This document shows positions 27,613 through 52,958 of a DNA stretch of 64,000 bases, piece by piece; within the stretch, counting starts at the first letter, position 1, and every line of letters starts with the position of its first letter. The notes under the pieces were generated by a model. The model was given only the letters and a program-made list of their open reading frames with translations. It had not been told where the DNA came from and did not search any database. The DNA comes from Ignavibacteriales bacterium (lineage in GTDB: Bacteria; Bacteroidota; Ignavibacteria; Ignavibacteriales; Ignavibacteriaceae): NCBI GenBank assembly GCA_020061465.1, contig JAGUYG010000037.1, positions 1 to 64,000 of the forward strand, given 5' to 3'. The translations under genes and the position numbers were made by a program.

Positions 27613-27915
27613 ATGGGATATGTGGGAAATATTAATGGTCCGAGAAAGTCAGAAATTGTACGCAAATTAGGGGCATCCTATTTTGGCATAAGTGATGAGG
27701 AACTAGATAAAGAAATTCAGATTTATCTTGACGAAGAATATTCCGGAGAAATCGATCCAATTCAATTAGATGAAAACAAAAAGCCATATTTACTTTTTTA
27801 TGGGCCAGAAAAAATAATACAAAAATTCTATCTAGATAGTGCTGGTTATAAACTAACTGGAAAAGTAAAAGCATCGATTAACAATGAAGAAAGGGAGATA
27901 ACTCTTGAAGACTAA
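27613..27915 (+). CDS. Small unknown protein of the AT-rich cassette
   Basis: 100 residues, acidic, no signal peptide or membrane segment. The first half resembles a mixed helical domain (PRKSEIVRKLGASYFGISDEELDKEI), the second half looks beta-rich (KPYLLFYGPEKIIQKFYL). No family is recognised. Its 3' end overlaps the phosphohexomutase start by 11 bases and includes that gene's ribosome binding site, so the two are translationally coupled. Confidence 0.65.
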   Translation: MGYVGNINGPRKSEIVRKLGASYFGISDEELDKEIQIYLDEEYSGEIDPIQLDENKKPYLLFYGPEKIIQKFYLDSAGYKLTGKVKASINNEEREITLED

Positions 27916-30199
27916 TAAATTTAAGTCCATCACTGATGAGTGGAACGAAATTAAAAAGGAAGTTGAAAATTCTATTAATAAATATCTAAAAAATGCTCCT
28001 TTAGATGATTTAATTAGACAAAAATCTTTATCAGATAATGGTGTATTAGCCAATCTTACTAAATGGATGGAAAACCCTTATATTGGTAAATTATCGCCAA
28101 AAGCGAAACAGGGTATTTTATTAGCAATCAAGAGTAATAATAGATGGGGGGATATCGCAGAAGCATTTTACACTGATATTGAGTTTGGTACTGGAGGAAT
28201 TAGAGGTAGAGCGGTAATTCAAGATCAAGAACTTGAAATGTTAAGGGATGAAGGTATTCACGCACCATTTCTTCGTGGTCCAAATACAATTAACGATTTG
28301 GTGTTTGCAAAAATTTCAGCTGCAATAGCAAAATTTGCTATGGATCGAAAATATAAAAGCCTAGTTATTGGATATGATAGTAGATTAAGAGGCAAAGATT
28401 TTGCACACCTTATTGCAAGTGTTTTTATTTCTTATGGAATTAAAGTTTATTTATTTGATGATGTTGTTCCATATCCAGAAGTTACATTTGCAATACCTTT
28501 TTTAAAAGCTGACATGGGAATTCTGATTTCAGCTAGTCATAATGATAGAAGGTACAACGGCTATAAACTGTCGAGTGCAAACGGTTCCCAGTTTTCAATT
28601 GAAGATCGAGCAATTATATTAAATGATTATATAGGAACAATTGGATTCGATAAAGTAAAATTCGCAAACTTGAAAGTTGCTGGTAAAGAAAAATTAGTAT
28701 TCCTTGGTGGTTCTGTCCGTTTTCCACATTTGGAATACTATTCATATAAGGGAAATCCTATTGATGTGCACTCTGCACATTGTAACCACATATTAGGCTT
28801 TGTGTTAGACCGAAATCAAATAAGAAATAATGAAGATAAAATACACCTTGTGTATTCAGCTTACAACGGAGCTGGAGGACCAACAATAAAGCGATTAGTT
28901 GATTCCTTAGGAGTCACAAAAATGGATATTATTTCTTCCTTATATAAAGTGGATGGAATGTTTCCCGCGTTTGAAGATTTAAAAAGTCCAAATGGTTATA
29001 AGGTTTACCAACAACCTGATCCTGGAGAGGAAAGGGCTGCAGATATAGCATTAGATAAGTATATTGATGAATTCGGATTAGAGAGGGCTAAAAAACTTGA
29101 TGCTTTGATCGGAACTGACCCAGATGCTGACAGAGCTGGCATAACCATACCTGTACCTAATGAATACAAAGAGATATTTGACGGAAGAGACTTTAAACTT
29201 TTGGACGCAGACACAGCATGGTCTTTAATACTTTGGCACCGTATAAATAATTGGAGAGAAATTAAAGGACTTGTTAAACTTAAGCTAAATTTAGAAGATT
29301 GTTTTATAGTCCAATCGCATACTACCACAGACATAATGCCACTTCTCGCAGAGAAATTTCAAATTGGTTGGGTTAAAACATGGGTTGGATTTGCACAGCT
29401 GGCAACAGGCGTTGAAAAGGTGTGGAATAGGTCGCTTTATGAAGACTATTTTACTAATAACAATAATAGCCAAGATTTTAAATCCATATTTAAATTCAAA
29501 GGTGTTTCGCAGAGATCATTATATAACTTTGCTGCATTAGAACAATCTAATGGGTTTAGTATTTTAGGTGCAAAACCAAGAAAAAAATATGAATTGGGAA
29601 GATATGGACATGTCAGAGATAAAGATGGCACGTTTGCGGCAATTCTCTTTCTTGACATACTTGCATATTCTAAGCAAATAAGAAAAACTATATGGGAAAT
29701 AATAGATGAAAATATATATCTTGATTCAATTATAGGCTTAATTCGCACTGGATATAGAGCTGCACCACAATATGGACAATATGAAGGATTAGAAGGACGC
29801 TCTTTCAAAATAAAAATACTTAAAGAATCTCTAAAACTTATTGAGTTAATTCCGTCTGGTCTTAATATAGGCAGTCGTAAAGTATCAAGAGCAGAGATAT
29901 ATAAAACTGGCAAATACGATATTCAACATGGGCATACTAAAGAAACAGGATTTGATCCTAAAAGAAGGGAAACATTTTGGTTCCCAGATGAGGGAATAAG
30001 ATTTTATTTCGACGATGAGTTTAACCATCTGACGATAAGACCTTCGGGAACCTCACAAAGTTTAAGGTTTCACATTCAATTACGTGATAAAAATGTTAAT
30101 CAAAATAACTTATTAAGAAAAAGAATTTCATTAGAGTCTGAGATTCTATTAATATTTGAAGATATTGGAAAGAAGGTAGGTATAGACTGGAAAATCTAA
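27905..30199 (+). CDS. Divergent alpha-D-phosphohexomutase (phosphoglucomutase-like)
   Basis: 764-residue member of the phosphohexomutase superfamily, converting a sugar 1-phosphate and 6-phosphate (or 5-phosphate). Motifs in order: TGGIRGR, catalytic Ser211 in ISASHN, magnesium site Asp405-Asp407-Asp409-Arg410 (DPDADR), a sugar loop LEQSNGF where EES is usual, RDKDGTFAA, and the phosphate loop RPSGT starting at Arg712. It is far longer than the 450-residue PMM/PGM type, with about 100 extra N-terminal residues and an insertion at 225-330. TTG start with strong AAGGGAG. It stands where a normal phosphomannomutase gene was interrupted. Confidence 0.85.
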   Translation: MKTNKFKSITDEWNEIKKEVENSINKYLKNAPLDDLIRQKSLSDNGVLANLTKWMENPYIGKLSPKAKQGILLAIKSNNRWGDIAEAFYTDIEFGTGGIRGRAVIQDQELEMLRDEGIHAPFLRGPNTINDLVFAKISAAIAKFAMDRKYKSLVIGYDSRLRGKDFAHLIASVFISYGIKVYLFDDVVPYPEVTFAIPFLKADMGILISASHNDRRYNGYKLSSANGSQFSIEDRAIILNDYIGTIGFDKVKFANLKVAGKEKLVFLGGSVRFPHLEYYSYKGNPIDVHSAHCNHILGFVLDRNQIRNNEDKIHLVYSAYNGAGGPTIKRLVDSLGVTKMDIISSLYKVDGMFPAFEDLKSPNGYKVYQQPDPGEERAADIALDKYIDEFGLERAKKLDALIGTDPDADRAGITIPVPNEYKEIFDGRDFKLLDADTAWSLILWHRINNWREIKGLVKLKLNLEDCFIVQSHTTTDIMPLLAEKFQIGWVKTWVGFAQLATGVEKVWNRSLYEDYFTNNNNSQDFKSIFKFKGVSQRSLYNFAALEQSNGFSILGAKPRKKYELGRYGHVRDKDGTFAAILFLDILAYSKQIRKTIWEIIDENIYLDSIIGLIRTGYRAAPQYGQYEGLEGRSFKIKILKESLKLIELIPSGLNIGSRKVSRAEIYKTGKYDIQHGHTKETGFDPKRRETFWFPDEGIRFYFDDEFNHLTIRPSGTSQSLRFHIQLRDKNVNQNNLLRKRISLESEILLIFEDIGKKVGIDWKI

Positions 30200-35918: not shown

Positions 35919-38378
35919 ATGAAAAAACCTCTCAAAAAAAAGCCGCAAGAACTGACCTCAGAAGAATTAAGATGGAAATGCAACCCGGATGTATTTGAAT
36001 TCGACTCAACAAGCGAGTTGGAACCAATTGAAGGGATACTAGGGCAGGAAAGGGCATTAAAGGCAATTAAGCTCGGTGTGGATTTACGCAGCCCGGGTTA
36101 TAATATTTATATAGCCGGTCTTTCCGGTACCGGTAAAGCAACAACTGTTAAAAAGATGCTCGAAGCGATCCGGTCTGACAGCGCAAGCTTAAACGATTAT
36201 GGATATGTAAATAATTTTAGAGATCCCGATCGCCCTATACTTCTCGTTTTTCCTGCAGGAAGTGCAAAAGTATTTAAGCAGGGAATTAACTCTGCTATTA
36301 ATCTCTTAAAAGAAAAAATTCCACAGGTATTAGACAGCGAATCATACAATGCACGCAAAAGTAAAATTATTGAGCTGTATAACGAGAAAGAACAACAATT
36401 ACTTCTTTCGTTCGACGAAAAACTCCGTAAAGAAAAGTTCTCATTAGGGCAGCTAAAGGTAGGGGATGCTACCCGCCCCGATATATTCCCCATTATTGAC
36501 GAAAAGCCTGTCCCCATTCATCAGCTCGAAGAATTACTGAAGCAGCAAAAGATAACCAAAGAAGATGCGAAACAGATTATTAAAAAGTATAATAATTATC
36601 AGCAGGAGATGCATACTTTATTTAAGAAGGGATTAAAACTTACCCAGGAATTTCAAAGCAAATTGCAGGAGCTTGAGAGGGAAATTGCGGTAAACGTTGT
36701 AAAAGGTGTAATAGATTACCTCCGGGAAAATTTTGAAGATACAAAAATACTCGAATATCTCAATCATGTTGAAGAAAACATTCTACAGAATATTCAAGTA
36801 TTTAAGGGGGTAAAACCGCAAGGAGAAACAGCTTCGGAAGGTTTTACTATTGATTATTTTAAGGAGTACGATGTAAATATAATTTTGGATAATTCTGAAA
36901 CTAAAGAATGCCCGGTTATTATTGAAACTTCACCTAATTATGTAAATCTTTTCGGCACAATAGAAAAGGTGAGCGACGGAAGAGGCGGATGGTACAGCGA
37001 TTTCACTAAAATAAAAGCCGGCTCGCTTCTCAGAGCCAACGGCGGTTATCTTGTATTAAATGTTAATCATCTCTTCGAAGAACCCGGAGTATGGAGAACC
37101 ATGAAGCGGGTATTGATTTATCGAAAGCTTGAATTTCAGGATACTTACAGTTTCTTCCAGATTTCACCTTCAACCTTAAAGCCCGAACCGATTCCAATGG
37201 ACACAAAAGTAATTCTCACCGGAAGCAATACTCTTTATTCTTTGTTATCTATGTATGAATACGACTTCAAAAAAATTTTCAAGATAAAAGCAGACTTCGA
37301 CTATGAAATAAAAAGAACCGATAAAGTACTTGTACAATACGCGAGAGTGATAAAGAAGCTAATTAAAGAAGAAGAATTATTGGAATTCGATAAGAGCGCT
37401 ATTGCTGCTTTAATCGAAATTTCAGCGCGAATTGCCGGACAGAAATACAAACTGTCAACACAATTTTCCCGAATTGCTGATATTGCCCGCGAAGCAAATT
37501 TTTGGGCTAAAGACGACGGGTTCGATGTTGTTAGTGCAGCCCATGTTATTAAAGCTTATAATTTAGCAAAAGAACGACACGGAATGCTTGAATCAAAAAT
37601 GGATGACATGATTCAAGAGCACGATCTTTTAATCGATACACAGGGAAAAAGAATCGGACAGATAAACGGTCTTGCAGTTTACAGCGCTGATTTTTATTCG
37701 TTCGGAAGACCGACAAGAATTACGGCTACTGTTTCGTTAGGCAGCGGAAGCATCATCAATGTGGAAAGAGAAGCCGGAATGAGCGGCAGGCATTATAACA
37801 AAGGAGTATTAATTATTTCCGGTTATTTTAAAGAAACTTTCGGACAAGATCAGCCTTTGTCTTTCAATGCCAACCTTGTGTTTGAACAGTCCTACGGAAC
37901 AGTTGACGGAGATAGTGCATCGTGCACTGAGATATTTGCTTTGCTGTCTACTCTTTCGGGCTTACCCATAGACCAATCCATAGCTGTAACAGGTTCGCTT
38001 AACCAAAAGGGAGATGTGCAGCCTATCGGAGGAGTTAATGAAAAAATTGAAGGCTTTTATGATGTATGTCTCAAGCAGGGCTTAAATAAAAGACAGGGAG
38101 TAACAATTCCTATTCAGAATGTAAAGGACTTAATGTTAAGAGAAGATATTGTCGAAGCGGTTCATCAGGGAAACTTCCATATTTATCCCATCTCACGCGT
38201 TGAGGAAGGAATAGAAATTTTAACAGGCGTAAAAGCAGGTAAAAAAACCGCTAAGGGTTATGAAGCCGGATCGGTTTTTGCGTTGGTCGATCAAAAAATA
38301 AAAGACCTTTACGCAAAATCGAAAGCCGCAAAAACTTCTAATAATAACGAAAAACCAAAAAAGAAAAGCAGAAAATGA
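35919..38378 (+). CDS. Lon-like ATP-dependent protease (AAA_32/LonB-like)
   Basis: 819-residue single-chain AAA+ protease. ATPase with Walker A GLSGTGKATT (about residue 70), a helical insertion with coiled-coil character (about 150-270), and a C-terminal Lon proteolytic domain with the Ser666/Lys709 dyad (DGDSASCTE and VNEKIEG). It is the predicted LonB-like group, distinct from housekeeping Lon by lacking the LAN domain. A lysine-rich tail ends the protein. Its stop overlaps the pyruvate kinase start by 4 bases. Confidence 0.93.
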   Translation: MKKPLKKKPQELTSEELRWKCNPDVFEFDSTSELEPIEGILGQERALKAIKLGVDLRSPGYNIYIAGLSGTGKATTVKKMLEAIRSDSASLNDYGYVNNFRDPDRPILLVFPAGSAKVFKQGINSAINLLKEKIPQVLDSESYNARKSKIIELYNEKEQQLLLSFDEKLRKEKFSLGQLKVGDATRPDIFPIIDEKPVPIHQLEELLKQQKITKEDAKQIIKKYNNYQQEMHTLFKKGLKLTQEFQSKLQELEREIAVNVVKGVIDYLRENFEDTKILEYLNHVEENILQNIQVFKGVKPQGETASEGFTIDYFKEYDVNIILDNSETKECPVIIETSPNYVNLFGTIEKVSDGRGGWYSDFTKIKAGSLLRANGGYLVLNVNHLFEEPGVWRTMKRVLIYRKLEFQDTYSFFQISPSTLKPEPIPMDTKVILTGSNTLYSLLSMYEYDFKKIFKIKADFDYEIKRTDKVLVQYARVIKKLIKEEELLEFDKSAIAALIEISARIAGQKYKLSTQFSRIADIAREANFWAKDDGFDVVSAAHVIKAYNLAKERHGMLESKMDDMIQEHDLLIDTQGKRIGQINGLAVYSADFYSFGRPTRITATVSLGSGSIINVEREAGMSGRHYNKGVLIISGYFKETFGQDQPLSFNANLVFEQSYGTVDGDSASCTEIFALLSTLSGLPIDQSIAVTGSLNQKGDVQPIGGVNEKIEGFYDVCLKQGLNKRQGVTIPIQNVKDLMLREDIVEAVHQGNFHIYPISRVEEGIEILTGVKAGKKTAKGYEAGSVFALVDQKIKDLYAKSKAAKTSNNNEKPKKKSRK

Positions 38379-39814
38379 TTCCTAAGCTGGTAGAGGTATT
38401 TGCCAAAACTAAAATTCTTTGCACAATAGGTCCGGCAGCTTCAACATGTGAAGATATTAAAAAGCTCATGCTTGCCGGGATGGATGGAATTAGATTGAAC
38501 TTCTCTCACGGCGATTATAATTTCTATTCAAAACTTTTTGATGATATTCATTCTGCTTGCGTTGATGAAAATTCACCTCTTGCAATTCTGGTTGATTTAC
38601 AAGGGCCTAAAATAAGAGTCGGTGAATTATCCGAACCCGAAATAGAATTAGTAACCGGACAGAATATTGAAATTACAATCGATGACATGCCCGGTAATAG
38701 AAATATCATCTCTACATCATACAAGCAATTAGTTAAAAATGCCCAAATCGGTGATCCGGTATTTATTGATGATGGATTAATCAAATTGAGAACTATCGGT
38801 AAAAAGGATAAATCGATAATATGTCTAATCGAGAACGGTGGAATACTAAAACCGCGTAAAGGTATGAATCTTCCGGGAATGCAGTTATCTACTCCTTCTG
38901 TAACTGAAAAAGATTACCGTGATCTGGAATTTTTATTAAACTACCGTGTTGATTATATCGCTTTGTCATTTGTTCGAAGTTCCAATGATATCATTACTCT
39001 AAGAGAATGGTTAAAGATAAAAAACAAATCGGTTCCGATAATTGCCAAAATAGAAAAGAAAGAAGCAGTTGATGATTTCGACGCGATTCTTAGAGAGTCT
39101 GACGGTATAATGATTGCGCGTGGTGACCTTGGCGTTGAGCTGCCTGCTCCGGAAGTGCCGGTAATTCAAAAGAAAATTATAAAACGCTGCAATGCCGTTG
39201 GCAAACTTGTAATTACGGCAACTCAAATGCTTGAATCGATGATTAATAATCCGATTCCTACGCGTGCCGAAGCTTCCGATGTTGCAAATGCAGTGTGGGA
39301 TGGGACAGATGTTGTTATGTTGAGCGGTGAAACCTCGATCGGAAAATATCCTCTCCGTGCAGTTGAATATATGAATAACATAGTTAGAAAAGCTGAAGAA
39401 CACTTAACTCCGGTACTGGATACAGAATTTGAGATTCCTCAGAATGTTGAAGAAAATCTGTTTGACTCTGTTGGAAAAGCCATAGTAAACATAAGCAGCC
39501 GAATTAATGCTGCAGCAATAGTAGTGTTTACGTTTAAAGGAAGGACTGCAAAAAATCTTGCAAAGTTTCGACCTAAAGCCAAAATCATTGCTCTATCAAA
39601 CAGCTTTGATACAATAAACAATCTTTGTTTGCGCTGGGGGGTAACATCGGTGTACCTTGAAGAAATAGTTAAAGAGCATATAGTAATCGACAAGGCAAAA
39701 AAAATGATTTTAGATTCCGGTCATGTCAAAGAAGGAGATATAGTAGTTTTTACTGCCGGGGCACCTTACTCGGAGAAGAGCCGTGCAAACTGGTTAAGGT
39801 TTGAAATAATGTAA
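38375..39814 (+). CDS. pyk: Pyruvate kinase
   Basis: 479-residue glycolytic enzyme making pyruvate and ATP from PEP and ADP. Motifs: TKILCTIGPA, GIRLNFSHG, ILVDLQGPKIRVG, IIAKIEKKEAVDDFD, IMIARGDLGVELP and ATQMLESMI. Normal length for the bacterial enzyme with a C-terminal allosteric domain. The ATGA overlap with the protease gene shows translational coupling, an unusual partnership. Confidence 0.97.
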   Translation: MIPKLVEVFAKTKILCTIGPAASTCEDIKKLMLAGMDGIRLNFSHGDYNFYSKLFDDIHSACVDENSPLAILVDLQGPKIRVGELSEPEIELVTGQNIEITIDDMPGNRNIISTSYKQLVKNAQIGDPVFIDDGLIKLRTIGKKDKSIICLIENGGILKPRKGMNLPGMQLSTPSVTEKDYRDLEFLLNYRVDYIALSFVRSSNDIITLREWLKIKNKSVPIIAKIEKKEAVDDFDAILRESDGIMIARGDLGVELPAPEVPVIQKKIIKRCNAVGKLVITATQMLESMINNPIPTRAEASDVANAVWDGTDVVMLSGETSIGKYPLRAVEYMNNIVRKAEEHLTPVLDTEFEIPQNVEENLFDSVGKAIVNISSRINAAAIVVFTFKGRTAKNLAKFRPKAKIIALSNSFDTINNLCLRWGVTSVYLEEIVKEHIVIDKAKKMILDSGHVKEGDIVVFTAGAPYSEKSRANWLRFEIM

Positions 39815-41599: not shown

Positions 41600-42370
41600 A
41601 TGGGGCTGCTTCAAAACAAAACTGCATTAATAACCGGAGCTACATCAGGTATAGGGTATGCATGTACCGTAACCTTTGCTGAAGAAGGTGCAAATTTGAT
41701 TATTACCGGCAGGCGTCGACAGAAATTACTGCAATTAGAAAAATTGTTGATTGAAAATTATAAAGTCAAAGTTTTATCCTTCGAATTAGATGTAAGACGA
41801 AGAGAGAAAGTTGAAGAAGTAGTAGCTAGTCTGCCTGCAAAGTGGAAGGAAATAGATATACTGGTAAACAATGCGGGATTAGCCCGTGGTTTTAGCAAAG
41901 TGCATGAATCAAACGTTGACGATTGGGAAGAGATGATTGATACTAATGTTAAGGGTTTATTGTACGTTACACGGCAGGTGCTTCCATTGATGGTTAAAAG
42001 GGAGAAGGGTCATATTATAAACATAGGTTCAATAGCCGGTGGGGAAGTATATTTAAATGGTAATGTTTATTGTGCAACTAAATCCGCAGTTAACGCACTG
42101 ACTAAAGCGATAAGAATCGATATTCTTGACAAGAAGATTAAAGTTAGTTCCATAGATCCCGGATTGGTGGAAACCGAGTTTAGCATGGTTAGATTTCACG
42201 GGGATGTTGAACGCGCCAAAAAAGTTTATGAGAACATACAACCATTAACAGCAGACGATATTGCAGACGCTGTATTATATTGTGTAACACGTCCCGCTCA
42301 TGTAAATATTAATGAGATCGTGCTTACTCCGCTTGCTCAAGCGTCAACTACATACATTGTTAGAGAATAA
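41600..42370 (+). CDS. Short-chain dehydrogenase/reductase
   Basis: 256-residue classical SDR of the YdfG/serine-3-dehydrogenase type. NADP-binding TGATSGIG, structural NNAG, catalytic Tyr157-x-x-x-Lys161 (VYCATK) with serine in INIGSIAGG, and the C-terminal VNINEIVLTPLAQ seen in YdfG relatives. YdfG oxidises 3-hydroxy acids such as serine or 3-hydroxypropionate, so a hydroxy-acid substrate is plausible. The ribosome binding site AAAGGATG precedes the ATG. Confidence 0.92.
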   Translation: MGLLQNKTALITGATSGIGYACTVTFAEEGANLIITGRRRQKLLQLEKLLIENYKVKVLSFELDVRRREKVEEVVASLPAKWKEIDILVNNAGLARGFSKVHESNVDDWEEMIDTNVKGLLYVTRQVLPLMVKREKGHIINIGSIAGGEVYLNGNVYCATKSAVNALTKAIRIDILDKKIKVSSIDPGLVETEFSMVRFHGDVERAKKVYENIQPLTADDIADAVLYCVTRPAHVNINEIVLTPLAQASTTYIVRE

Positions 42371-42474: not shown

Positions 42475-45400
42475 ATGAATTTGGCAAACGAAAATATATC
42501 TAACGTTAACTCACCGGATGAACCTTCTGCTTTAGATTCAATCCTTCAAACTCTTATACACAAATTACAAAATATTCCTCCCAAAACTGATGAAATAACA
42601 ATTGAATGTGACAAACTTTGGAAATACTTCTCGTCTTTATCTACTACAATTGAACCGGAGAGAATTAAATGTTTGCTTCCATTTTTACGGAAGAGTAAAG
42701 GCGAAATTACGGCTCAGCTTTTTTCAGTTTGCGAAGATATAGCAAGAAAATTAACCGACCCGTGGATATTCATGGAAAGTCTTTTAGACTCATGGAATGA
42801 AGATTTAATATTTAGAGCGCTTGACCTGTTAGAGAAACTTGCAATTGAAGGTTTAATTAAAGTTGATTTAAGAGTTATTAATTTCATTGCAGATAAATTA
42901 GATATTGAGAACTCGATACTAAGCACTCAAAAAGCTCTCGAAAAAATTTCGGCTATTGTAAGTCTTATACCGGTGGAATCTCCTGAACCAGAAAGCGATC
43001 CTTTGCTTAAAATTTATTTGGAAAATAAAGATAGAAAATCTCGTGTTCTTGCAGCCAAACTTTTAGATTTACGAAGTGCTCCGGCTCCTGAAGAAACAAT
43101 AAAAAAATTATTAGGATCCGAAGCTGCTAAAATTCTTACACCATATCTTGCGTATACCCGCGCAGCTTATCTTGATTTGCTTTATTTAGTCCCTGCATTC
43201 AATAAGCCCCAGCCAATCCTTGAATCGTTACAGCATTGTGAAAGAGTTTGCGGAGAGAATATCCTAAGGGAAGTAATAGCAAAGCTTGGATGGAAGTACG
43301 TAAACTATGGTTTATCAGTAAGGCATTATGTGGGTATATCTTTTGAAGGATCGCTTCCACTATTTCTTTCTGAAAATGAAGCCAAACTTTTTGAAAAATC
43401 TGTCAATGCTCGAAGAGTTTCTGAATTTTTTCTTTTCTCCGCACATGGGGGCTTACCTTTTGAAAGCGAAACATCAGTGGACAGCGACAAACCCGTTACA
43501 CTTTTTCGTACCTATAATTTAGCTCACGCCGATTTACTTCAGGAGATTCTTGATATTGCTCCTCTCACACCTCAAAAGATTAGAAAAATAATTGAACTAA
43601 CAGACAGAATAGTTGATGATTTTATAATGCTCTTCAAATCATACTCAGAGGAATGTTCAATTCTTCATGATGTATATGAAAAAATTAAATATAAAATACT
43701 CGACGAACTGAATCGCGATCCGTCGAAGACACAATTATCTGCCAATATAACCCGTCTTGTTCAAATGTTTGAAGATCCGCATACAATCGGTGAGGTTCAC
43801 ACTTTACACGGACTAAAAAGATATTTACACCAGAAAGGTCTTCAATTAGGATTTAAGCTGGTTGATCAATCCAAATCACCAAACCAAAGTGTAAGCATTG
43901 TTCTTGCATCAAGGACAAAAGTCTTATCGGTTATTCAAAAAATTAACTATGCAGATTTTGAATCGGGAATCGAAAAAGAATTTTCGTTCAACAAAATTCC
44001 TTACCCGGTTAAAGATGTAATTGACGGATTTGAGCGACAACTCTTGCATGGACAGGAAAGTTTTCCTAACATAAATATTTTTTGTTACGGGAATGAAGTG
44101 CATTATTTTGTTTGGTTTCGCAATCACCCGGTATTTATCAGGATTGATTTCTCGCCACCTTTACAGGGCGGAATGATTGACCTTCAATACTTTGCTATTA
44201 GTAACTACGAAATTGCTGATCATCCCAACATAAATCTCGATGCAATTAAAATTTTCTTTCAATCACTGGAATTCGATGTCCAGTTGGACGGTACCCATTT
44301 ACATGCGAGGTATGATAAAGAACGTGCTCTCGATTTAAGCCAGCTTTGTGAGAGAGTTGAATATCTTTTCTGTCTTGTTCCTTACTTGATGGATTTAGAT
44401 TGGGTGATTGGTTCATTAAAGCTTAGATCAGAGGCAAAATTAAAAATTGCTAAAGTATGGGCAGAGATGTTTAACAGGTGGGGAGCGCTCCCTGTGAACA
44501 AACTTCTGACAAAAGACAAACTCGGAATATTACAAGATATATTAACTACTACGGATGGTGAGCACGAATTAGTTTGGCCCGGTGAAGATAATTATCAAGA
44601 TCGATGTTCAATACAGATCCCGCGTGGATTTTTTAAACAAATTTTTTATTCGATTGATAATCTCGGTTTGAACATTCCAAAATTTTCTGAGGAGAACTTC
44701 AATCGGCTTGGTCAAATTTATTTGGAAAAAAAGCTGCTTAATTATTTGCGTGAAGCTTTGACTGACGGTGAAATTGTTGAAACGCCAGAAGGATTGAATA
44801 AAACTCCGGAAGATTTATTTCAAATAATTCACGAAGCATATTGGTTTGCAATAATCCTAAGCAGTGGAGGGAAGGATTTAGAATCATCAACAGCTCTTGC
44901 TAAAGTGATAATTCCCTTAGAGCAAACCTTGAAATTTCAAACTACAGGTACTTTGGAGAGTTTTAAAGTACAAACATCAATTATTCCACTCAGAGGAAAG
45001 AACTTACGAATTTATGTTTTACGTGATTATAACGGAATTATTAGAATGGCATTTTATATTCACGGAAACTCACTCTATCAAAAGAGAAAAGTTGCGGGTG
45101 AGCCCTGGGAAACGAACGCAGTTCTATCTCCTATTGAGCTTATGTCATTACTCCGGAGTAATAACTACATTGTCACAGGATCAGAACCATCTGTTGAATC
45201 AATAAAAGAAGAAATTCAAAAAATTCAAGATGAATTGCTCCTGCACCCAAAACCTGTATTACAGATTCAAACTCCCGGTGAAAAAGTTGTTATGGGATTA
45301 AGCGCTTCACCCGGCAGATCTGCCGGCAGAGTTCTGCTTGGTGTTAGAGGAAGATTACCGGAAGAATTTATCGATCACATTTTTGTTGCTCCTTCTGTAT

Positions 45401-47565
45401 CACCTGATGAAAACACTATTATTTTTAATTCTGCTGGTGTTGTTGCAACAGGCGGCGGCATTCTCAGTCATGCAGGGCTGATAGCAACGCAATTCAATAA
45501 AGCGGCATTAATAATATCGGGAAAATGGAAGCAGGAATCAGATGGTTCGTTAATTCTGCATTATCAAACCTCTGAATTCCAGGTTGAGCATAAAAAAGTA
45601 AAAGGATTTAATATCACTCTTCATTATGATTTGCAGGAACGAGAGCATCAGATGCATGATGGTGATTTGGTTGTTCTCAATGCAAATGAAGGAAACTTGC
45701 AGGTTCTCGGTCAAGAAAGAGATACGATTGCATTGTTTGAAGGTTTAAAATCATTAGGAAAAACAAATGAAGATATTTCTAAAGTTAGTAATGATAAAGA
45801 GCTGTTAGTTTTACGCGGAAAGAAGCTGCACATCAGGCACCAGGTTGAGAAATTTCTTAAACGAATTTCCGAGACAGTAATGGCGCGATTTGCGATCAAG
45901 GAAATTTTAATCGGAAATTTTCTTGATGGAAATAAAAGTACACCTGAAGAAAGAGCATATCTTTTAAAATTAATTTTAGAAAATGACAAAATCGGACACA
46001 TTGCAAAAAATTTTCTATCACAGACAGCAGTTGAAATCGAAAATAAATTCATAAGTGCTTATACGAAAGCTGAAAAGGATATTCCTCTTGCCAAGTATCC
46101 GTTTGAAGTGGTAATGGCGCGGTTAGAAGTCTTTCGGATTTATGAAGCTATAAGAAGTGTTACTGCTTCTCTTAGCGACAGTTTGCTGCAAAAGATTAAA
46201 ATTGAAACAAAGAGTATAAACGATATAAATAAAATCAGTATACATCGCCTGGAGAAAATTCGCAGCAAACTCTTAGATAAAATTCAAAGATTAGCCGGCA
46301 GCACTGAAAAAAGAGAATTCCTCCGGCATCTTTTTAGACAATTAGGAAGAATAGATTTATTGCTCAACACACAGGAAAGAGAACAAACCAGAATTAAAGA
46401 GCTTCATAAGGAATTTGAGAATGAAGATGATATCCTTCGTGAGAAGCTGGCAGATAAATTTATTCTGAAACCGGTTGACGGTTCACTTGAACTATTTCCA
46501 TTAATCGGTTGGAAAGCCGCTAATCTTGCTGAACTTGAAAAGCTTGGGGGTAAAGGATTAGTTCCTCCTTGGTTCGTTATTACCGATAAAGCATTTCAAA
46601 CTGTTCTTGAAACAAACATCAAAGAAAATGTTTTTATTTCCGGGGATAATTTACTCGGTGGAATTTCATTACGTCAAGCTATTGATAAAATCCTATCCAG
46701 AAATGATATCAATAACAGAGAAAAATCTTTGCACATAAGAAATTTGTGGAACATGATTTCACTGCCGGAAGAAATAAAAAATGAAGTACTTAAAGCATAT
46801 CGGGAAATTGAAAAAGAGTTTGATTCAAATTCATCTAAGAAAAAAAACGAATCAAAATTTTATGTTGCCCTTCGATCTTCATCTTGCGAGGAAGATGCAG
46901 AGATAGCCGCAAGAGCCGGAGAATTCGAAACTTACCTGTTCATAACAGGTGAAGAACTTTTAATTGAATATTTGAAACGAACATGGAGCGGGCTGTGGAC
47001 TGAAAGAGCAATTCACAACCGTACGGCTTTAGGTACCCAGCAGGTTCGGGCAAAAGGAGGAGTGGTTATCCAGCATATTGTTTGGTCGCGTATATCCGGA
47101 GTGCTGCAAACCTTAAATGCCGGCAAAGGTAATTTAAGAGAAATTGTTATTAATGCAGGTTTAGGTCTCGGCGAAGGTGTAGTTTCCGGTACTGTTGCAG
47201 CTGATCAAATTATAGTTTCGAAAGAAGGTGACTTGGAAAAAGGTTCTCCCCATTTCAATTATGTTACCGCTGATAAAATGGAGCATGTTGTATTTAATAA
47301 AAAAGCAGGTTTTGGTACGGTTCTCACATCAACTCTTTATCACCAAAGATTCCGCCCTGCTTTGGAATATGTCGAACTATGTGAACTTGTTTCTGCGGCT
47401 TCGCGTTTAGAATCTGCTTACGGCTATCCACTCGATATTGAATTCGGCATTGAAAAAAATAAATTATGGCTTTTGCAGGTTAGACCGGTTGCAACATTTC
47501 TGCCGGCATTCAGAGAAACAATAACTAATTATCCCTTAGTGAATAAAAATAACAGAATTACTTAG
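42475..47565 (+). CDS. Dikinase-like protein with central phospho-His domain and C-terminal ATP-grasp
   Basis: A 1696-residue protein. Residues 1 to about 940 match nothing I recognise (helical first third; beta-containing parts near 530-640 and 820-900). A PEP-utiliser swivelling domain follows, with His999 in GGGILSHAGLIATQF, then a coiled-coil stretch (1080-1330) and a PPDK-type ATP-binding domain (about 1340-1690: LIGWKAANLAELEKLGG, VALRSSSCEEDAEI, DIEFGIEKNKLWLLQVRP). No PEP-binding TIM barrel is present. The order is that of glucan/phosphoglucan water dikinases, so it may phosphorylate an unknown acceptor held by the N-terminal region. It lies 11 bases before maeB. Confidence 0.85.
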   Translation: MNLANENISNVNSPDEPSALDSILQTLIHKLQNIPPKTDEITIECDKLWKYFSSLSTTIEPERIKCLLPFLRKSKGEITAQLFSVCEDIARKLTDPWIFMESLLDSWNEDLIFRALDLLEKLAIEGLIKVDLRVINFIADKLDIENSILSTQKALEKISAIVSLIPVESPEPESDPLLKIYLENKDRKSRVLAAKLLDLRSAPAPEETIKKLLGSEAAKILTPYLAYTRAAYLDLLYLVPAFNKPQPILESLQHCERVCGENILREVIAKLGWKYVNYGLSVRHYVGISFEGSLPLFLSENEAKLFEKSVNARRVSEFFLFSAHGGLPFESETSVDSDKPVTLFRTYNLAHADLLQEILDIAPLTPQKIRKIIELTDRIVDDFIMLFKSYSEECSILHDVYEKIKYKILDELNRDPSKTQLSANITRLVQMFEDPHTIGEVHTLHGLKRYLHQKGLQLGFKLVDQSKSPNQSVSIVLASRTKVLSVIQKINYADFESGIEKEFSFNKIPYPVKDVIDGFERQLLHGQESFPNINIFCYGNEVHYFVWFRNHPVFIRIDFSPPLQGGMIDLQYFAISNYEIADHPNINLDAIKIFFQSLEFDVQLDGTHLHARYDKERALDLSQLCERVEYLFCLVPYLMDLDWVIGSLKLRSEAKLKIAKVWAEMFNRWGALPVNKLLTKDKLGILQDILTTTDGEHELVWPGEDNYQDRCSIQIPRGFFKQIFYSIDNLGLNIPKFSEENFNRLGQIYLEKKLLNYLREALTDGEIVETPEGLNKTPEDLFQIIHEAYWFAIILSSGGKDLESSTALAKVIIPLEQTLKFQTTGTLESFKVQTSIIPLRGKNLRIYVLRDYNGIIRMAFYIHGNSLYQKRKVAGEPWETNAVLSPIELMSLLRSNNYIVTGSEPSVESIKEEIQKIQDELLLHPKPVLQIQTPGEKVVMGLSASPGRSAGRVLLGVRGRLPEEFIDHIFVAPSVSPDENTIIFNSAGVVATGGGILSHAGLIATQFNKAALIISGKWKQESDGSLILHYQTSEFQVEHKKVKGFNITLHYDLQEREHQMHDGDLVVLNANEGNLQVLGQERDTIALFEGLKSLGKTNEDISKVSNDKELLVLRGKKLHIRHQVEKFLKRISETVMARFAIKEILIGNFLDGNKSTPEERAYLLKLILENDKIGHIAKNFLSQTAVEIENKFISAYTKAEKDIPLAKYPFEVVMARLEVFRIYEAIRSVTASLSDSLLQKIKIETKSINDINKISIHRLEKIRSKLLDKIQRLAGSTEKREFLRHLFRQLGRIDLLLNTQEREQTRIKELHKEFENEDDILREKLADKFILKPVDGSLELFPLIGWKAANLAELEKLGGKGLVPPWFVITDKAFQTVLETNIKENVFISGDNLLGGISLRQAIDKILSRNDINNREKSLHIRNLWNMISLPEEIKNEVLKAYREIEKEFDSNSSKKKNESKFYVALRSSSCEEDAEIAARAGEFETYLFITGEELLIEYLKRTWSGLWTERAIHNRTALGTQQVRAKGGVVIQHIVWSRISGVLQTLNAGKGNLREIVINAGLGLGEGVVSGTVAADQIIVSKEGDLEKGSPHFNYVTADKMEHVVFNKKAGFGTVLTSTLYHQRFRPALEYVELCELVSAASRLESAYGYPLDIEFGIEKNKLWLLQVRPVATFLPAFRETITNYPLVNKNNRIT

Positions 47566-47576
47566 GAGAAATTGAA

Positions 47577-49832
47577 ATGATAAAGCGAGAAGATTCTTTA
47601 AGATATCATTCGGTAGATCGGCGCGGTAAAATAGAAATTCATCCTACAAAAGCTTGCTTAACCCCGAGAGAAATGCGGCTTTGTTATCTACCGGGGGCAT
47701 CCTTTCCTTCATCAGAAATTGTAAAAGATAGCGCCAACGTATTTCAATACACTTCAAAAGGAAATCTTGTTGGAGTAATTACTGATGGTTCAGCAGTTCC
47801 CGGGCTGGGTGATGTGGGTCCTCTTGCCGCTAAACCGATGCAGGAAGGAATAGCAATTTTATTTAAGCGTCTTGCAGATATAGATGTTTTTGATCTCGAA
47901 CTTAGTACCAAAGATCCCGACCTATTTATAGAAACCGTAAAAATTCTTGAACCAACATTTGGTGGAATAAATCTTAAAGACATCAAAGCACCCGAAGGTT
48001 TAAAAATATACGACTGCTTATGTGAGAGCTTAAACATTCCTGTTTTTCATGAGAATCTTTATAGTACTGCTGTGGTAGCAGTTGCTGCATTAATAAACGC
48101 TCTTGATTTAATTGACAAGCGTGTTGAAGAAATTCGAGTTGTTCTGTGCGGTGCAGGTACAGTTGGCATTGGATGTGCAAGATTATTAATTCAATTGGGT
48201 GTCAAACCAGAAAATCTGCTAGTTTATGATATAAAAGGTTTGCTCCATCCGGATCGTGATGATCTCTCAGATTATCAGCGACCGTTTGCTGTTAATCATC
48301 CGGCGCTAAGCATGGAAAAAGGGCTTGAGGAAGCAGATGTATTTATTGGTGCATCTGCAGGCGGAATACTGAATCTGAAAATGATTCATAAAATGAACAG
48401 GTTCCCGATTGTTTTTGCCTTGGCTACTCCTGAACCTGAAATTGATTATGAAGCAGCTAAAGGTAGCAGGCACGATATTATTGTTGCTACAAGTTCGGCA
48501 ACATATCCAAATTCAATTTTAGATCTATTAAGTTTCCCATATATTTTCCGCGGTGCATTAGATGTTCAAGCTACGCGTATCACTGAAGGAATGCTGTTAG
48601 CTGCGGCTCGTGCTTTATCTGAACTTGCTCGCGATGAGGTAATAGAAGAAGTAGTACGAGCTTATGGTTTCGAGCATTTCAGCTTTGGACCTGAATACTT
48701 ATTGCCTAAACCGATTGATCCACGAATTTTGGTAAGAGAGTCAACTGCAGTTGCTTTACAAGCGATAAAAGACAATGTAGCAAAGAGTAAAATTAAAGCC
48801 GAAAATTATCATGAAAGCCTGACTGTACGCTTAGGTACCGGCAGAGAAACATTACGAAGACTTATTTTAAGAGCAAGACAGGAAAAATTTCGCGTTGTAT
48901 TTTCTGAGGGAACCAGCGAGACAATACTACGATCATGCAGTGTTTTACTTGATGAAGGAATTGCTAAACCAATTCTTCTCGGATCAGAAGATGAGATCGG
49001 AAAAATTATTGATAGACTTGGATTAGAATTAAGAGGGATACAGATCATTGATCCAAATCGCAGTTTACGTTTTAATGCTTATGTAGATGAATATTTCGGA
49101 ATGCGGCATCGCCGCGGAGTTATTCGTGCTGCGGCAGTTGACCGACTTCGACTAAGAGACTATTTTGCCGCAATGATGGTTCACAGCGGTGATGCTGATA
49201 TGATGATCGCCGGATTTTCAACTCATTATGTAGATACCCTCAGAACATTACTTGAAGTTGTCGGTCCTGAAAAAGGTGTTAAACGAATCTCCAGTTTTTA
49301 TCTCGTTCTTCTTCCAAAAGATGTAGTTCTTTTAGCTGATTGTGCGGTTAATATTGATCCCTCAGCAGAGGAGCTTGCCGAAATTGCTCTGCTGACTGCT
49401 AGAACAAGTCGTGCACTTGGAATTGAACCGGTAGTAGCAATGCTTTCATTTTCAAATTTCGGAAGCGTCGACTCGCTTTCAGTAGTCAAAGTTCGAAATG
49501 CTGCAGAAATTGTTAAGCAAAAATCCCCGAAATTTGTAATAGATGGCGAAATGCAGCTTGCAACTGCACGTGATGAAAATATAAGAAGAGATTACTTCCC
49601 TTTTACGAAACTGAAAACCGATGCTAATATTTTAATTTTCCCTGATCTTCAATCAGCTAATTTAACTTTACAATCACTCCAATATATGGGAGATGCAGTA
49701 ACCGTTGGTCCGATACTTATGGGAACGAGATTACCTGTGCATTTGCTTCAATACGGTGCTACGGTTGAAGAAGTGGTTAACTTGACAACTGTAGCCGTAG
49801 TCCAAGCCGCAGATGTGAAAAAATTTGAATGA
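47577..49832 (+). CDS. maeB: NADP-type malic enzyme fused to phosphotransacetylase-like domain
   Basis: 751-residue MaeB-type enzyme: decarboxylating malate dehydrogenase (residues 1 to about 420; TDGSAVPGLGDVGPLAAKPMQEG, VVLCGAGTVGIGCARLL) and a phosphotransacetylase-like C-terminal half (about 430-751), usually regulatory. It converts malate to pyruvate with NAD(P)H. Immediate proximity to the dikinase-like gene and the pyruvate kinase 8 kb upstream suggests a pyruvate/PEP node. Ribosome binding site TAGGAGAAATTGAA. Confidence 0.95.
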   Translation: MIKREDSLRYHSVDRRGKIEIHPTKACLTPREMRLCYLPGASFPSSEIVKDSANVFQYTSKGNLVGVITDGSAVPGLGDVGPLAAKPMQEGIAILFKRLADIDVFDLELSTKDPDLFIETVKILEPTFGGINLKDIKAPEGLKIYDCLCESLNIPVFHENLYSTAVVAVAALINALDLIDKRVEEIRVVLCGAGTVGIGCARLLIQLGVKPENLLVYDIKGLLHPDRDDLSDYQRPFAVNHPALSMEKGLEEADVFIGASAGGILNLKMIHKMNRFPIVFALATPEPEIDYEAAKGSRHDIIVATSSATYPNSILDLLSFPYIFRGALDVQATRITEGMLLAAARALSELARDEVIEEVVRAYGFEHFSFGPEYLLPKPIDPRILVRESTAVALQAIKDNVAKSKIKAENYHESLTVRLGTGRETLRRLILRARQEKFRVVFSEGTSETILRSCSVLLDEGIAKPILLGSEDEIGKIIDRLGLELRGIQIIDPNRSLRFNAYVDEYFGMRHRRGVIRAAAVDRLRLRDYFAAMMVHSGDADMMIAGFSTHYVDTLRTLLEVVGPEKGVKRISSFYLVLLPKDVVLLADCAVNIDPSAEELAEIALLTARTSRALGIEPVVAMLSFSNFGSVDSLSVVKVRNAAEIVKQKSPKFVIDGEMQLATARDENIRRDYFPFTKLKTDANILIFPDLQSANLTLQSLQYMGDAVTVGPILMGTRLPVHLLQYGATVEEVVNLTTVAVVQAADVKKFE

Positions 49833-50099: not shown

Positions 50100-50714
50100 T
50101 TAATAAACAAATAAGCTTACATCGCCTGCACCAACTCGAACTACCTCGGGGACTTCCTCACTTAGGTCAATTACCGTAGATGGCTGTCCATTAATATTTC
50201 CCGAAGCGAGCATTAAGTCAACTTGCGAGTTGAATACATTTCTTATTTCGAATGGATCGTAAAGTATTTCTCCTTTTCTACTAGTAGTGCTGGTACTAAT
50301 TATCGGATTTCCCAATTCCTCAGCAAGTTTAAGAGTTATAGGATGATTCGGGACTCTGATTCCGACGGTCTTTCTTTTACTCCATAACTTTTTGGGCACG
50401 AGCTTTGCCGCGGGAAGAATAAAAGTATACGGACCCGGCAGAAGATGTTTCATGGTTCTATACGCATAATCCGAAACTTTTGCATATTTTGAAATATCCT
50501 TCAAATCTGCGCAAACAAAGCTGAAAAGTTTATTTGAACTATCGTTTTTTATATGAAATATTCTTTCGAGCGCTTCTCTATTAAAAATGTCACATCCAAT
50601 TCCATAAACCGTATCGGTAGGGTAAATAATTACCCCTCCGTTTTTTAATACTTCCACAGCTTTATTTATGAATCTTTGCTGAGGATTTTCCGGGTGAAGT
50701 TCATAGTACTCCAT
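50100..50714 (-). CDS. yciO: YciO-type Sua5/YrdC-family protein
   Basis: 204-residue member of the Sua5/YciO/YrdC family. The start YYELHPENPQQRFINKAVE, then GGVIIYPTDTVYGIGCD, LLPGPYTFIL, KTVGIRVPNHPI and ISTSTTSRKGE follow E. coli YciO closely rather than TsaC. The TsaC motif for threonylcarbamoyl-adenylate (KRPxxxPL and STSAN) is changed here. True TsaC makes the tRNA t6A precursor; YciO activity is weaker and debated. The start is the ATG at 50714 with AAAGGAGC; a longer upstream ORF to 50840 has no support. Confidence 0.88.
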   Translation of the reverse strand: MEYYELHPENPQQRFINKAVEVLKNGGVIIYPTDTVYGIGCDIFNREALERIFHIKNDSSNKLFSFVCADLKDISKYAKVSDYAYRTMKHLLPGPYTFILPAAKLVPKKLWSKRKTVGIRVPNHPITLKLAEELGNPIISTSTTSRKGEILYDPFEIRNVFNSQVDLMLASGNINGQPSTVIDLSEEVPEVVRVGAGDVSLFVY

Positions 50715-50997
50715 GATAGCTCCTTTCAGTTTAGTATTTTTACAGCTGCAATGATATTTGATAAAAGGGATTGGAATTTTATGAAGATGTGGACTCCTAA
50801 TGTTTATGATTAATTTGTAGCTTATGGTAAAAATAATCACTTAATAATCAATGTCAACAGCATCATTAAAATATTTTATAAAATTTTTGCTTAAAAAAAA
50901 TTACACTAAAATTTCTAACCATAATGTGTATTTTTTGAGCAAAAATTTACTATATTAGCACTCAAAATTTTAAGATATAGAGTTAAAGGAGCCTTTT

Positions 50998-51294: not shown

Positions 51295-51741
51295 CTACTC
51301 TCTAACTACCCACACTTTAATTTTTGAACTTACATTTGAGTGTAATTTTATATTAATACCATAGATGCCTAAAGATTTTATCGGCTCCTCAATTTCAATT
51401 TTTCTTTTATCAATTTCGTAACCCTTTTCCTTTAGTGCATCAGCAATCATTTGTGTGGTAACTGTTCCAAATATTTTATCCTCTTCGCCAACCTGAACCG
51501 GGATAGTAACCGAGACTTTCTCCAGTTCTACGGCAAGATTTTCTGCAGCATGCAGTTCTTGCTTTACCTTTTTTGCAAACGCTCGCTTTTCTTCTTCCAA
51601 TGATGCAATGTTTCCTTTAAGGGCTGTATAGGCAATCTTTCGGGGGATTAAATAATTTCGGGCATATCCCTCCTTAACTTCTACTACATCTCCCACTTGC
51701 CCTAAAGTTTCAAAATTCTGTCTAAGTATTACTTTCATCAT
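51295..51741 (-). CDS. rplI: Ribosomal protein L9
   Basis: 148 residues: N-terminal RNA-binding domain (MKVILRQNFETLGQVGDVVEVKEGYARNYL, given here as the standard L9 signature region 2-31), connecting helix and C-terminal domain. Two consecutive ATG codons follow a GGGAG ribosome binding site; either may be used. Last gene of the rpsF-ssb-rpsR-rplI operon. Confidence 0.96.
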   Translation of the reverse strand: MMKVILRQNFETLGQVGDVVEVKEGYARNYLIPRKIAYTALKGNIASLEEEKRAFAKKVKQELHAAENLAVELEKVSVTIPVQVGEEDKIFGTVTTQMIADALKEKGYEIDKRKIEIEEPIKSLGIYGINIKLHSNVSSKIKVWVVRE

Positions 51742-51757
51742 TCACTCCCGTTATTAA

Positions 51758-51988
51758 CTATCGAACCGTATCGGAAACATAGGGCAAAAGAGCCATATGC
51801 CTTGCACGTTTGATAGCAATTGCTAATTGTCTTTGATATTTAGAGCTTGTGCCGGTTATTCGCTTAGGAATAATTTTACCTTGCTCAGTAATGAATTTTT
51901 GCAGCAGCTTAACATCTTTATAATCAATATATTTGATTTTATTTTGAGTAAATCTGCAGATTTTTTTTGTTTTAATTTCTTTTCTCAT
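51758..51988 (-). CDS. rpsR: Ribosomal protein S18
   Basis: 76 residues with the family signature [20 protein letters not shown] and RRI(T)[18 protein letters not shown]. It binds 16S rRNA as a heterodimer with S6, whose gene is two positions upstream. Ribosome binding site GGTGG before the ATG. Nine bases separate it from ssb. Confidence 0.96.
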
Positions 51989-51997
51989 AAGCCACCA

Positions 51998-52483
51998 TTA
52001 TTCTTTTATTAAATCCGATTCTTCACTTGATAAAAATTTATCAAAAGAATCTTCTGTATAACCGATACTATTATCTTCCTCGCTAATTAAATCAACTTCT
52101 TCTTCAATACCCAAACCATTTTCTCCGTTAATTTTAGATCTTTTATTCAGGAACTGAATTCTTCTTGCTTTAATCTCTACGATGCTTCTGTTGTGTCCTT
52201 CGTCCGATTTCCAGCTTCTGCTTTGAAGTTCGCCGTCGACCAGAACAGCAGAGCCTTTTTTTAATCTATCGCGGCAGCTTTCTGCCAGCTTATTCCATGC
52301 AACAATGCCGACATAACATACATCCTCCTGCCATTGGTTAGAACTGTCTTTATATTTTCTGTTAGAAGCAATTGAAAAGTTTACAACAGGAGTATTGTTA
52401 GTAGTTTGCCGAAAGATTGGGTCTTTTGTTAAATTACCGGCAACTATTACGTAGTTAATTTCAGGCATCTTCAAATCGGCCAT
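51998..52483 (-). CDS. ssb: Single-stranded DNA-binding protein
   Basis: 161-residue SSB: OB-fold (about 1-110; NYVIVAGNLTKDP, FSIASNR, WNKLAE, LVDGELQSRSW) and an acidic tail. The tail ends DLIKE rather than the usual DDDIPF, so the last aromatic that binds partner proteins is missing. It may be a variant whose partners differ, or the canonical SSB may lie elsewhere. Good ribosome binding site GGAGGA. Operon position between rpsF and rpsR is conserved. Confidence 0.94.
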   Translation of the reverse strand: MADLKMPEINYVIVAGNLTKDPIFRQTTNNTPVVNFSIASNRKYKDSSNQWQEDVCYVGIVAWNKLAESCRDRLKKGSAVLVDGELQSRSWKSDEGHNRSIVEIKARRIQFLNKRSKINGENGLGIEEEVDLISEEDNSIGYTEDSFDKFLSSEESDLIKE

Positions 52484-52520
52484 GGTATTCCTCCGTACTT
52501 AATCTAATATTGTTAATTAA

Positions 52521-52958
52521 TTACTCACTATCTTTTGAATCTTCAACTATTTCAGTTATTTCTTCAATAATTTGATCCTCAACATCCATCAATGGTTCTT
52601 TTACGAGCAGGTTGTCGTTTTCAATGATGGAGCTATTTTTATGCTTCTCAAGGTGTTCAATGGCATCCTCATCCAGAATAATAGAAAGGAAACGAAGCAC
52701 ATTGTCATCTAATGTATAAAATCGTTCTAACTTGGATATTAAAGCAGGCGGGGCATCAAATCTGAAAATGGCATAGTAACCGATCTTGCTCTTTTTAACC
52801 ATATACGCTAATCTTTTTCTTCCCCAGTTTTCAACTTCTCTAATAGTACCGCCGTTGTTGATGATGGTATCTTTGATGCGGGTAACTATCGCCTCAATTT
52901 GTTCATCTTCAAGAGCAGCATTTATTAGAACAGCGCTTTCATAGACATTTGTCTTCAA
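52521..52958 (-). CDS. rpsF: Ribosomal protein S6
   Basis: 145 residues: S6 domain (YESAVLINAALEDEQIEAIV, GGTIREVENWGRKRLAYMVKKSKIG...FRFDAPP) and an acidic tail (VEDQIIEEITEIVEDSKDSE, within 125-145). The start is TTG, supported by a near-perfect ribosome binding site (AAGGGAGGTGA). First gene of the ribosomal operon; see the leader hairpin upstream. Confidence 0.96.
   Translation of the reverse strand: MKTNVYESAVLINAALEDEQIEAIVTRIKDTIINNGGTIREVENWGRKRLAYMVKKSKIGYYAIFRFDAPPALISKLERFYTLDDNVLRFLSIILDEDAIEHLEKHKNSSIIENDNLLVKEPLMDVEDQIIEEITEIVEDSKDSE

Follow-up and report, generated by a model that had tools for sequence, protein, structure and literature searches.

What does the giant dikinase-like protein encoded in this DNA phosphorylate, and is it a bacterial counterpart of the plant starch dikinases? 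The window, that is, the whole stretch that was analysed, comprises 64,000 nucleotides of a contig from an Ignavibacteriales bacterium. An earlier note had proposed from the domain order of the protein that it might add phosphate to glycogen or another polymer. Dikinases with swapped acceptor domains have been a repeated source of new chemistry, acting on rifampin, phenols and starch or serving as regulatory kinases. We consider the domains of the protein together with the gene that accompanies it.

Architecture of the dikinase

The features of the dikinase gene are as follows.

42475..47565, + strand: giant dikinase, 1,696 amino acids (open reading frame and full-length relatives; the limits first assigned to it are correct)
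42475..43299, + strand: residues 1-275, mostly helical, HEAT/ARM-like (AlphaFold, pLDDT mostly 75-90)
43747..44424, + strand: residues 425-650, conserved core of the N-terminal module (alignment of 7 relatives)
45280..45744, + strand: phospho-His swivel domain, about residues 936-1090 (PF00391 in 7/7 relatives)
45721..46455, + strand: unrecognised helical linker, about residues 1083-1327 (predicted structure, pLDDT about 85)
46501..47496, + strand: ATP-grasp domain (PPDK_N), residues 1343-1674 (Pfam and structure comparison)

The reading frame is uninterrupted, and conservation spans its entire length among relatives, which are 55-65% identical within the same family and 37-42% identical in a second family of that order. 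dS is saturated but exceeds dN by a wide margin. Pfam matched PF00391 at residues 968-1019 and PF01326 (PPDK_N) at residues 1343-1674 (E 1e-56), and no other family at E<=1; the C-terminal ATP-grasp domain with a His domain before it, as the earlier note had described, was thus confirmed. NCBIfam gave only sub-threshold matches (PEP synthases, prodigiosin ligase and rifampin phosphotransferase), nearly all of which fall in the His and ATP-grasp domains. The best family for the swivel domain is the classical PEP-utiliser, PF00391. Its catalytic H999 (codon 45469-45471, motif TGGGILSHAG) is invariant across all complete relatives and lines up with the corresponding His of 8a8e, a PEP synthase. 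The same is true of K1347, R1467, E1656, Q1668 and R1670 at the ATP site, each of which is invariant in these relatives and aligns to its counterpart in 8a8e. Thus, the machinery that passes phosphate from ATP to the phospho-His looks intact. Between the His and ATP-grasp domains lie about 245 residues that belong to no family and are predicted to be all-helical.

Two parts of the dikinase, the N-terminal module and residues 920-1696, were predicted by AlphaFold from shallow alignments. In the model of residues 920-1696, the C-terminal domain matched PEP synthase 2ols with a VIA Z of 22.1 over 278 residues, and the ATP-grasp model matched HpeI 9goj (Z 21.8) and RPH 5hv1 (Z 20.7). In both sequence and structure comparison, the closest ATP-grasp domains are those of PEP synthase, RPH and HpeI. 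The dikinase is therefore predicted, from its conserved residues, to be an active non-barrel member of the PEP synthase/RPH superfamily.

The domain order of PPDK (ATP-grasp, His, barrel) is not matched, as the His domain of the dikinase precedes the ATP-grasp domain. No Pfam or NCBIfam family of the PEP barrel matched the protein. The profile of the N-terminus was compared with eight PPDK barrels by hhalign (probability 0.2%, E 0.3), and the predicted secondary structure of residues 1-935 has no eight-fold beta/alpha alternation. The barrel had earlier been called absent, with the caveat that a divergent copy in the N-terminus would make the protein a PEP synthase variant; the absence holds, and a hidden divergent barrel was dropped since profile-profile comparison and predicted strand/helix order were both negative.

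Residues 1-934 of the window's dikinase gave zero Pfam matches at E<=10, the N-terminal profile matched no PDB sequence at E<=10, and the core of this region was without a match in Pfam, NCBIfam, PHROG and PDB-sequence comparisons. The view that the N-terminus is unrecognised and a candidate acceptor region therefore stands, no domain being recognised in residues 1-935. The AlphaFold model of this module (mean pLDDT 76, pTM 0.70, built on seven sequences) consists of helical repeats over roughly the first 275 residues, followed by a mixed alpha/beta part. Foldseek and VIA retrieved helical-repeat proteins only, matching about residues 5-200, with a VIA Z of about 10 over about 150 residues, and this arrangement is common. 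The fold prediction that had been suggested for the N-terminus thus gave an overall layout, of which only the helical part matched structures, so the fold of the rest of the module is not claimed as new. The helical residues 1-275 are partly deletable, as about 75 of them or more are missing in L038 and L039.

The conserved core is different from its surroundings. Within residues 425-650, 87 of the 226 positions (38.5%) are invariant in 7/7 relatives, compared with 9.9% in the remainder of residues 1-935, and 32 of these 87 are R, K, D, E, H, N or Q. Because the core stands out by its invariance and its charged and polar residues, we propose it as the best candidate for the acceptor-binding or active site.

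The dikinase was found by a search with the N-terminal profile in 7 of the 164 genomes of its order (three of them are G444, G446 and G005), in two families. Profile searches covered only the window's own phylum: the 391 genomes examined in the class yielded no additional case, and the 395 of the phylum none outside the order. Relatives were also sought in viral contigs, plasmids and phages, with none found. All GTDB species were scanned by exact 8-mer matching alone, and so distant relatives may exist in other phyla. The genome to which the window belongs (G000) also carries two paralogous proteins of about 1,000 amino acids (L003:961-4128 on G000:C48 and L002:946-3984 on G000:C95) with a response-regulator-like N-terminus and PPDK_N, in which Pfam detects no phospho-His domain or PEP barrel.

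The analogy with plant starch dikinases holds for the domain order and fails for glucan. As in plant GWD and PWD, the His domain is followed by a C-terminal ATP-grasp domain, there is no PEP barrel, and the N-terminal region is large. Unlike in these enzymes, neither a carbohydrate-binding module (CBM) nor PF22973 was detected, and the conserved context is malic enzyme-like. A search for carbohydrate-binding modules, which the earlier note had suggested, returned none from Pfam in the N-termini of five relatives at E<=10, a result at the sequence level that is compatible with a divergent CBM fold; the GWD phospho-His family PF22973 had no match at E<=10 in the dikinase or in the whole genome. 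Membership of the dikinase in GWD was dropped on these two grounds. In L011:1-2601 (G048:C81), an unrelated protein of the order, PPDK_N at the C-terminus comes after a His motif, VSHVQLLAR, that was recognised by eye, so that this protein appears to have a GWD-like order too. This means that domain order alone says little. malQ does lie in the window about 37 kb away (3760-5298), as had been stated, and no glucan neighbour is conserved. Phosphorylation of glycogen or another polysaccharide is thus not supported, the only conserved neighbour being a degenerate malic enzyme, and we regard a bacterial glucan dikinase as very improbable. Elsewhere in the window, a 764-aa ORF (27905-30196, + strand) matches phosphoglucosamine mutase over about 110 residues (129-242) only.

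The linked MaeB-type gene

The features of the neighbouring gene and its flanks are as follows.

41600..42370, + strand: left flank, SDR oxidoreductase, outside the unit (adjoins the right-flank gene in relatives without the pair)
47577..49832, + strand: partner, MaeB-type protein with malic enzyme and PTA domains, 751 amino acids (Pfam, NCBIfam)
47850..47852, + strand: partner I92 at the catalytic K107 position, BbMaeB numbering (alignment)
47976..47978, + strand: partner K134 at the catalytic E149 position (alignment)
48051..48059, + strand: partner E159-N160-L161 at D174-D175-Q176, HENLYSTA versus HDDQHGTA (alignment)
50100..50840, - strand: right flank, Sua5/YrdC-family gene, outside the unit (Pfam and relatives)

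The partner contains PF00390, PF03949 and PF01515, the malic N-terminal, NAD-binding and PTA domains. A MaeB-type gene lies immediately downstream of the dikinase gene on the same strand, with a gap of -14 to +21 nt, at 6/6 loci with sufficient flank (the window, L038/L083, L040, L071, L081 and L082). Neighbours other than this gene mostly differ between dikinase loci. L038 (L038:15131-18121) and L040 (L040:15359-17785) are an exception: immediately beyond the downstream end of the pair, both have two opposite-strand genes that, on reading, resemble oxaloacetate decarboxylase beta and alpha, and the window has none of these.

Ordinary MaeB is present in nearly all genomes of the order and is 44-49% identical to the window's linked copy. 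The linked copies are 51-83% identical to the window's and occur only in the seven dikinase genomes among the 164. The probability of this exact 7/164 coincidence between dikinase and MaeB paralogue by chance is about 2e-12, a value that ignores relatedness. A tree groups the linked copies in a single clade (support 1.0) whose stem is long, at 0.68 substitutions per site. By these comparisons, the linked MaeB is a distinct paralogue and, as far as the genomes of the order indicate, the exclusive partner of the dikinase. Genome G488 (estimated 100% complete) carries the linked paralogue and lacks ordinary MaeB. The idea that the partner regulates ordinary MaeB is weakened by this genome, and controlling ordinary MaeB is not a general role of the paralogue.

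The SDR and Sua5/YrdC genes that flank the pair lie 1.1 kb or less apart in 26 of the 38 other relatives having both, and within 200 bp in 18 of these 26. In the window, 7.7 kb separates the two, and the dikinase and MaeB-like genes are all that lies in this interval. Since the flanking genes are adjacent in most relatives, the pair behaves as a discrete module that was gained or moved together. Neither target-site repeats nor odd base composition was found as an insertion scar around it. In the window (51295-52958) and in G465 (L081:364-1320), which belong to different families, the pair has rpsF/ssb-type ribosomal genes, identified by reading, a few kb away; this may hint at an old shared location.

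The structure of the hybrid malic enzyme BbMaeB places catalytic Y52, K107, E149 and D174 around the Mg site, and its PTA domain is a hexameric acetyl-CoA sensor with assigned residue roles (PMC7902834). We mapped these positions onto the linked copies through the 9kru sequence. The partner resembles a hybrid MaeB in its domains, their order and its length, and it differs in its catalytic residues and acetyl pocket. In 7/7 linked copies, K107 is replaced by I, M or T, E149 by K or Q, D174 by E or L, and Q176 by L, and D175 is replaced by N in 6/7; Y52 is the sole one of the four catalytic residues retained in all seven. K107, E149 and D174 are retained in 23/23 ordinary MaeBs examined. The PTA contacts with acetyl-CoA are mostly preserved. 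R535, Y576, R581, N616, Q683, N718 and P735 are retained in 7/7 linked copies, Q748 in 6/7, and R or K stands at 538 in 6/7. The acetyl pocket is changed in 7/7 (T614 to A or V, Y721 to L or M, K722 to Q or H). Judged by these residues, the partner is a degenerate malic enzyme that has lost its catalytic residues and kept most of its CoA contacts.

The partner gene is nonetheless under constraint. The window and L038 copies are 82% identical with a dN of 0.11 and a dS of about 1.5, which argues against a decaying pseudogene. The replacements are nearly identical in six of the seven copies, and the same six retain the Rossmann GAG nucleotide motif; hence the malic enzyme domain may have acquired another activity instead of being inactive. 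This shared pattern and the strong constraint speak for a paralogue re-tooled to catalyse something different, with a C4-type acid or a CoA ester as its substrate, in a two-step pathway in which the dikinase would phosphorylate its substrate or product. K149, E174, N175 and L176 would then form the pocket, with the GAG motif intact in 6/7 copies. The seventh copy, L082 of G488, has lost the GAG motif too, and its dikinase is intact. The pair can thus do without nucleotide-dependent catalysis, and we consider the re-tooled enzyme rather unlikely.

The malic-enzyme ancestry of the neighbour also bears on a PEP synthase-like enzyme, in which pyruvate would be the acceptor on a non-barrel domain. 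Such an enzyme would fit the nearest ATP-grasp domains, which come from PEP synthases, and a pyruvate kinase gene 3 kb upstream (38375-39814). However, no barrel is detected, an ordinary PPDK is already encoded in the genome on C96, and the partner lacks the residues for converting malate to pyruvate. The pyruvate kinase gene is not a conserved neighbour at the other dikinase loci and was dropped as a functional neighbour. A PEP-forming role is therefore improbable, given the normal PPDK and a partner that is not expected to make pyruvate. Together, the two genes point away from a starch-type phosphorylating enzyme and towards a metabolic enzyme or switch that has not been described.

A proposed two-gene module and its possible acceptors

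We propose that an ATP-dependent dikinase with a different acceptor module and a pseudo-malic-enzyme work together as a two-gene module, a model for which we see about an even chance. Architecture, pairing and residue loss are read from sequence; activity, acceptor, CoA sensing and interaction are predictions built on them. ATP would bind the C-terminal ATP-grasp domain, and H999 of the swivel would take the phosphate with release of AMP and Pi or PPi, as the conserved residues suggest. The swivel domain would then move over to the N-terminal module, where a non-pyruvate acceptor at the core (residues 425-650) would receive the phosphate. The MaeB paralogue, which would have no malic enzyme chemistry, would most likely bind a CoA ester via its PTA domain and dock on or gate the dikinase, coupling its activity to carbon status. 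Alternatively, the MaeB-like protein may present the substrate to the dikinase. The two genes are tied to each other by operon adjacency and co-occurrence; binding between their products is a prediction. More specifically, the pseudo-malic-enzyme could be an acyl-CoA sensor that gates a giant dikinase with a new acceptor domain, forming a new metabolic control unit; we advance this tentatively. Because the acetyl pocket is altered in all seven copies, the ligand is perhaps an acyl-CoA other than acetyl-CoA.

Precedents make both non-barrel transfer and control by a partner plausible. RPH and HpeHI combine ATP-grasp and swivel parts with non-barrel acceptor domains (PMC4844700, PMC12167813), and VadK, a PPDK derivative that no longer has the PEP domain, phosphorylates itself and interacts with enzymes of the methylcitrate cycle (PMC13400623). 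Like HpeHI/CreHI/PpsAB and RPH, the dikinase has a PEP synthase-type ATP-grasp domain and a swivel, and a different acceptor domain takes the place of the barrel. Two positions ahead of the His, both have a residue other than Thr (Leu in the dikinase, Met in RPH and HpeH). Unlike HpeHI and RPH, the dikinase has the His domain before the ATP-grasp domain in one chain with a helical linker, a 935-aa N-terminal module without a recognisable relation to the RIF-binding domain or HpeH, and a pseudo-malic-enzyme partner. The sequence match of RPH is confined to the ATP-grasp domain, and the N-terminal structure search was dominated by helical repeats.

The strongest rival to the two-gene model is a protein acceptor, possibly the partner itself. 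The dikinase would then be a regulatory protein kinase like VadK (Rv1127c of Mycobacterium tuberculosis), with H999 handing its phosphate to a protein, for which the MaeB paralogue or another enzyme of central carbon metabolism is the likeliest choice. In that case the N-terminus would act as a docking scaffold, and the module would switch metabolism by phosphorylation. The modelled helical, HEAT/ARM-like N-terminus is consistent with such a scaffold, the obligate neighbour resembles a non-catalytic sensor, and the barrel-less, PPDK-derived VadK interacts with and regulates methylcitrate enzymes (PMC13400623). VadK is also alike in lacking the PEP domain and in its place near central-carbon enzymes. 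On the other hand, the 32 invariant polar or charged residues of the core suit a small-molecule active site better than a scaffold, and VadK itself has an N-terminal ATP-grasp domain and a His domain only, no large acceptor or scaffold module, and catalytic partner enzymes. We regard a protein acceptor as possible, if doubtful.

A literature search on inactive malic enzymes, mostly outside subscription papers, found nothing that matches the pairing of a dikinase with a pseudo-malic-enzyme. In the proposed two-gene module, the dikinase adds an unrecognised, highly conserved candidate acceptor module of about 935 residues. The partner is a strong clue, since it is predicted to be a malic enzyme with most CoA-sensor contacts and without the chemistry. 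The pair is compact and conserved, and thus hunting for the acceptor is directly feasible. If the model is true, this would be, to our knowledge, the first dikinase directly controlled by a dead enzyme of central metabolism, and the pair would connect acyl-CoA levels to a new phosphorylation event.
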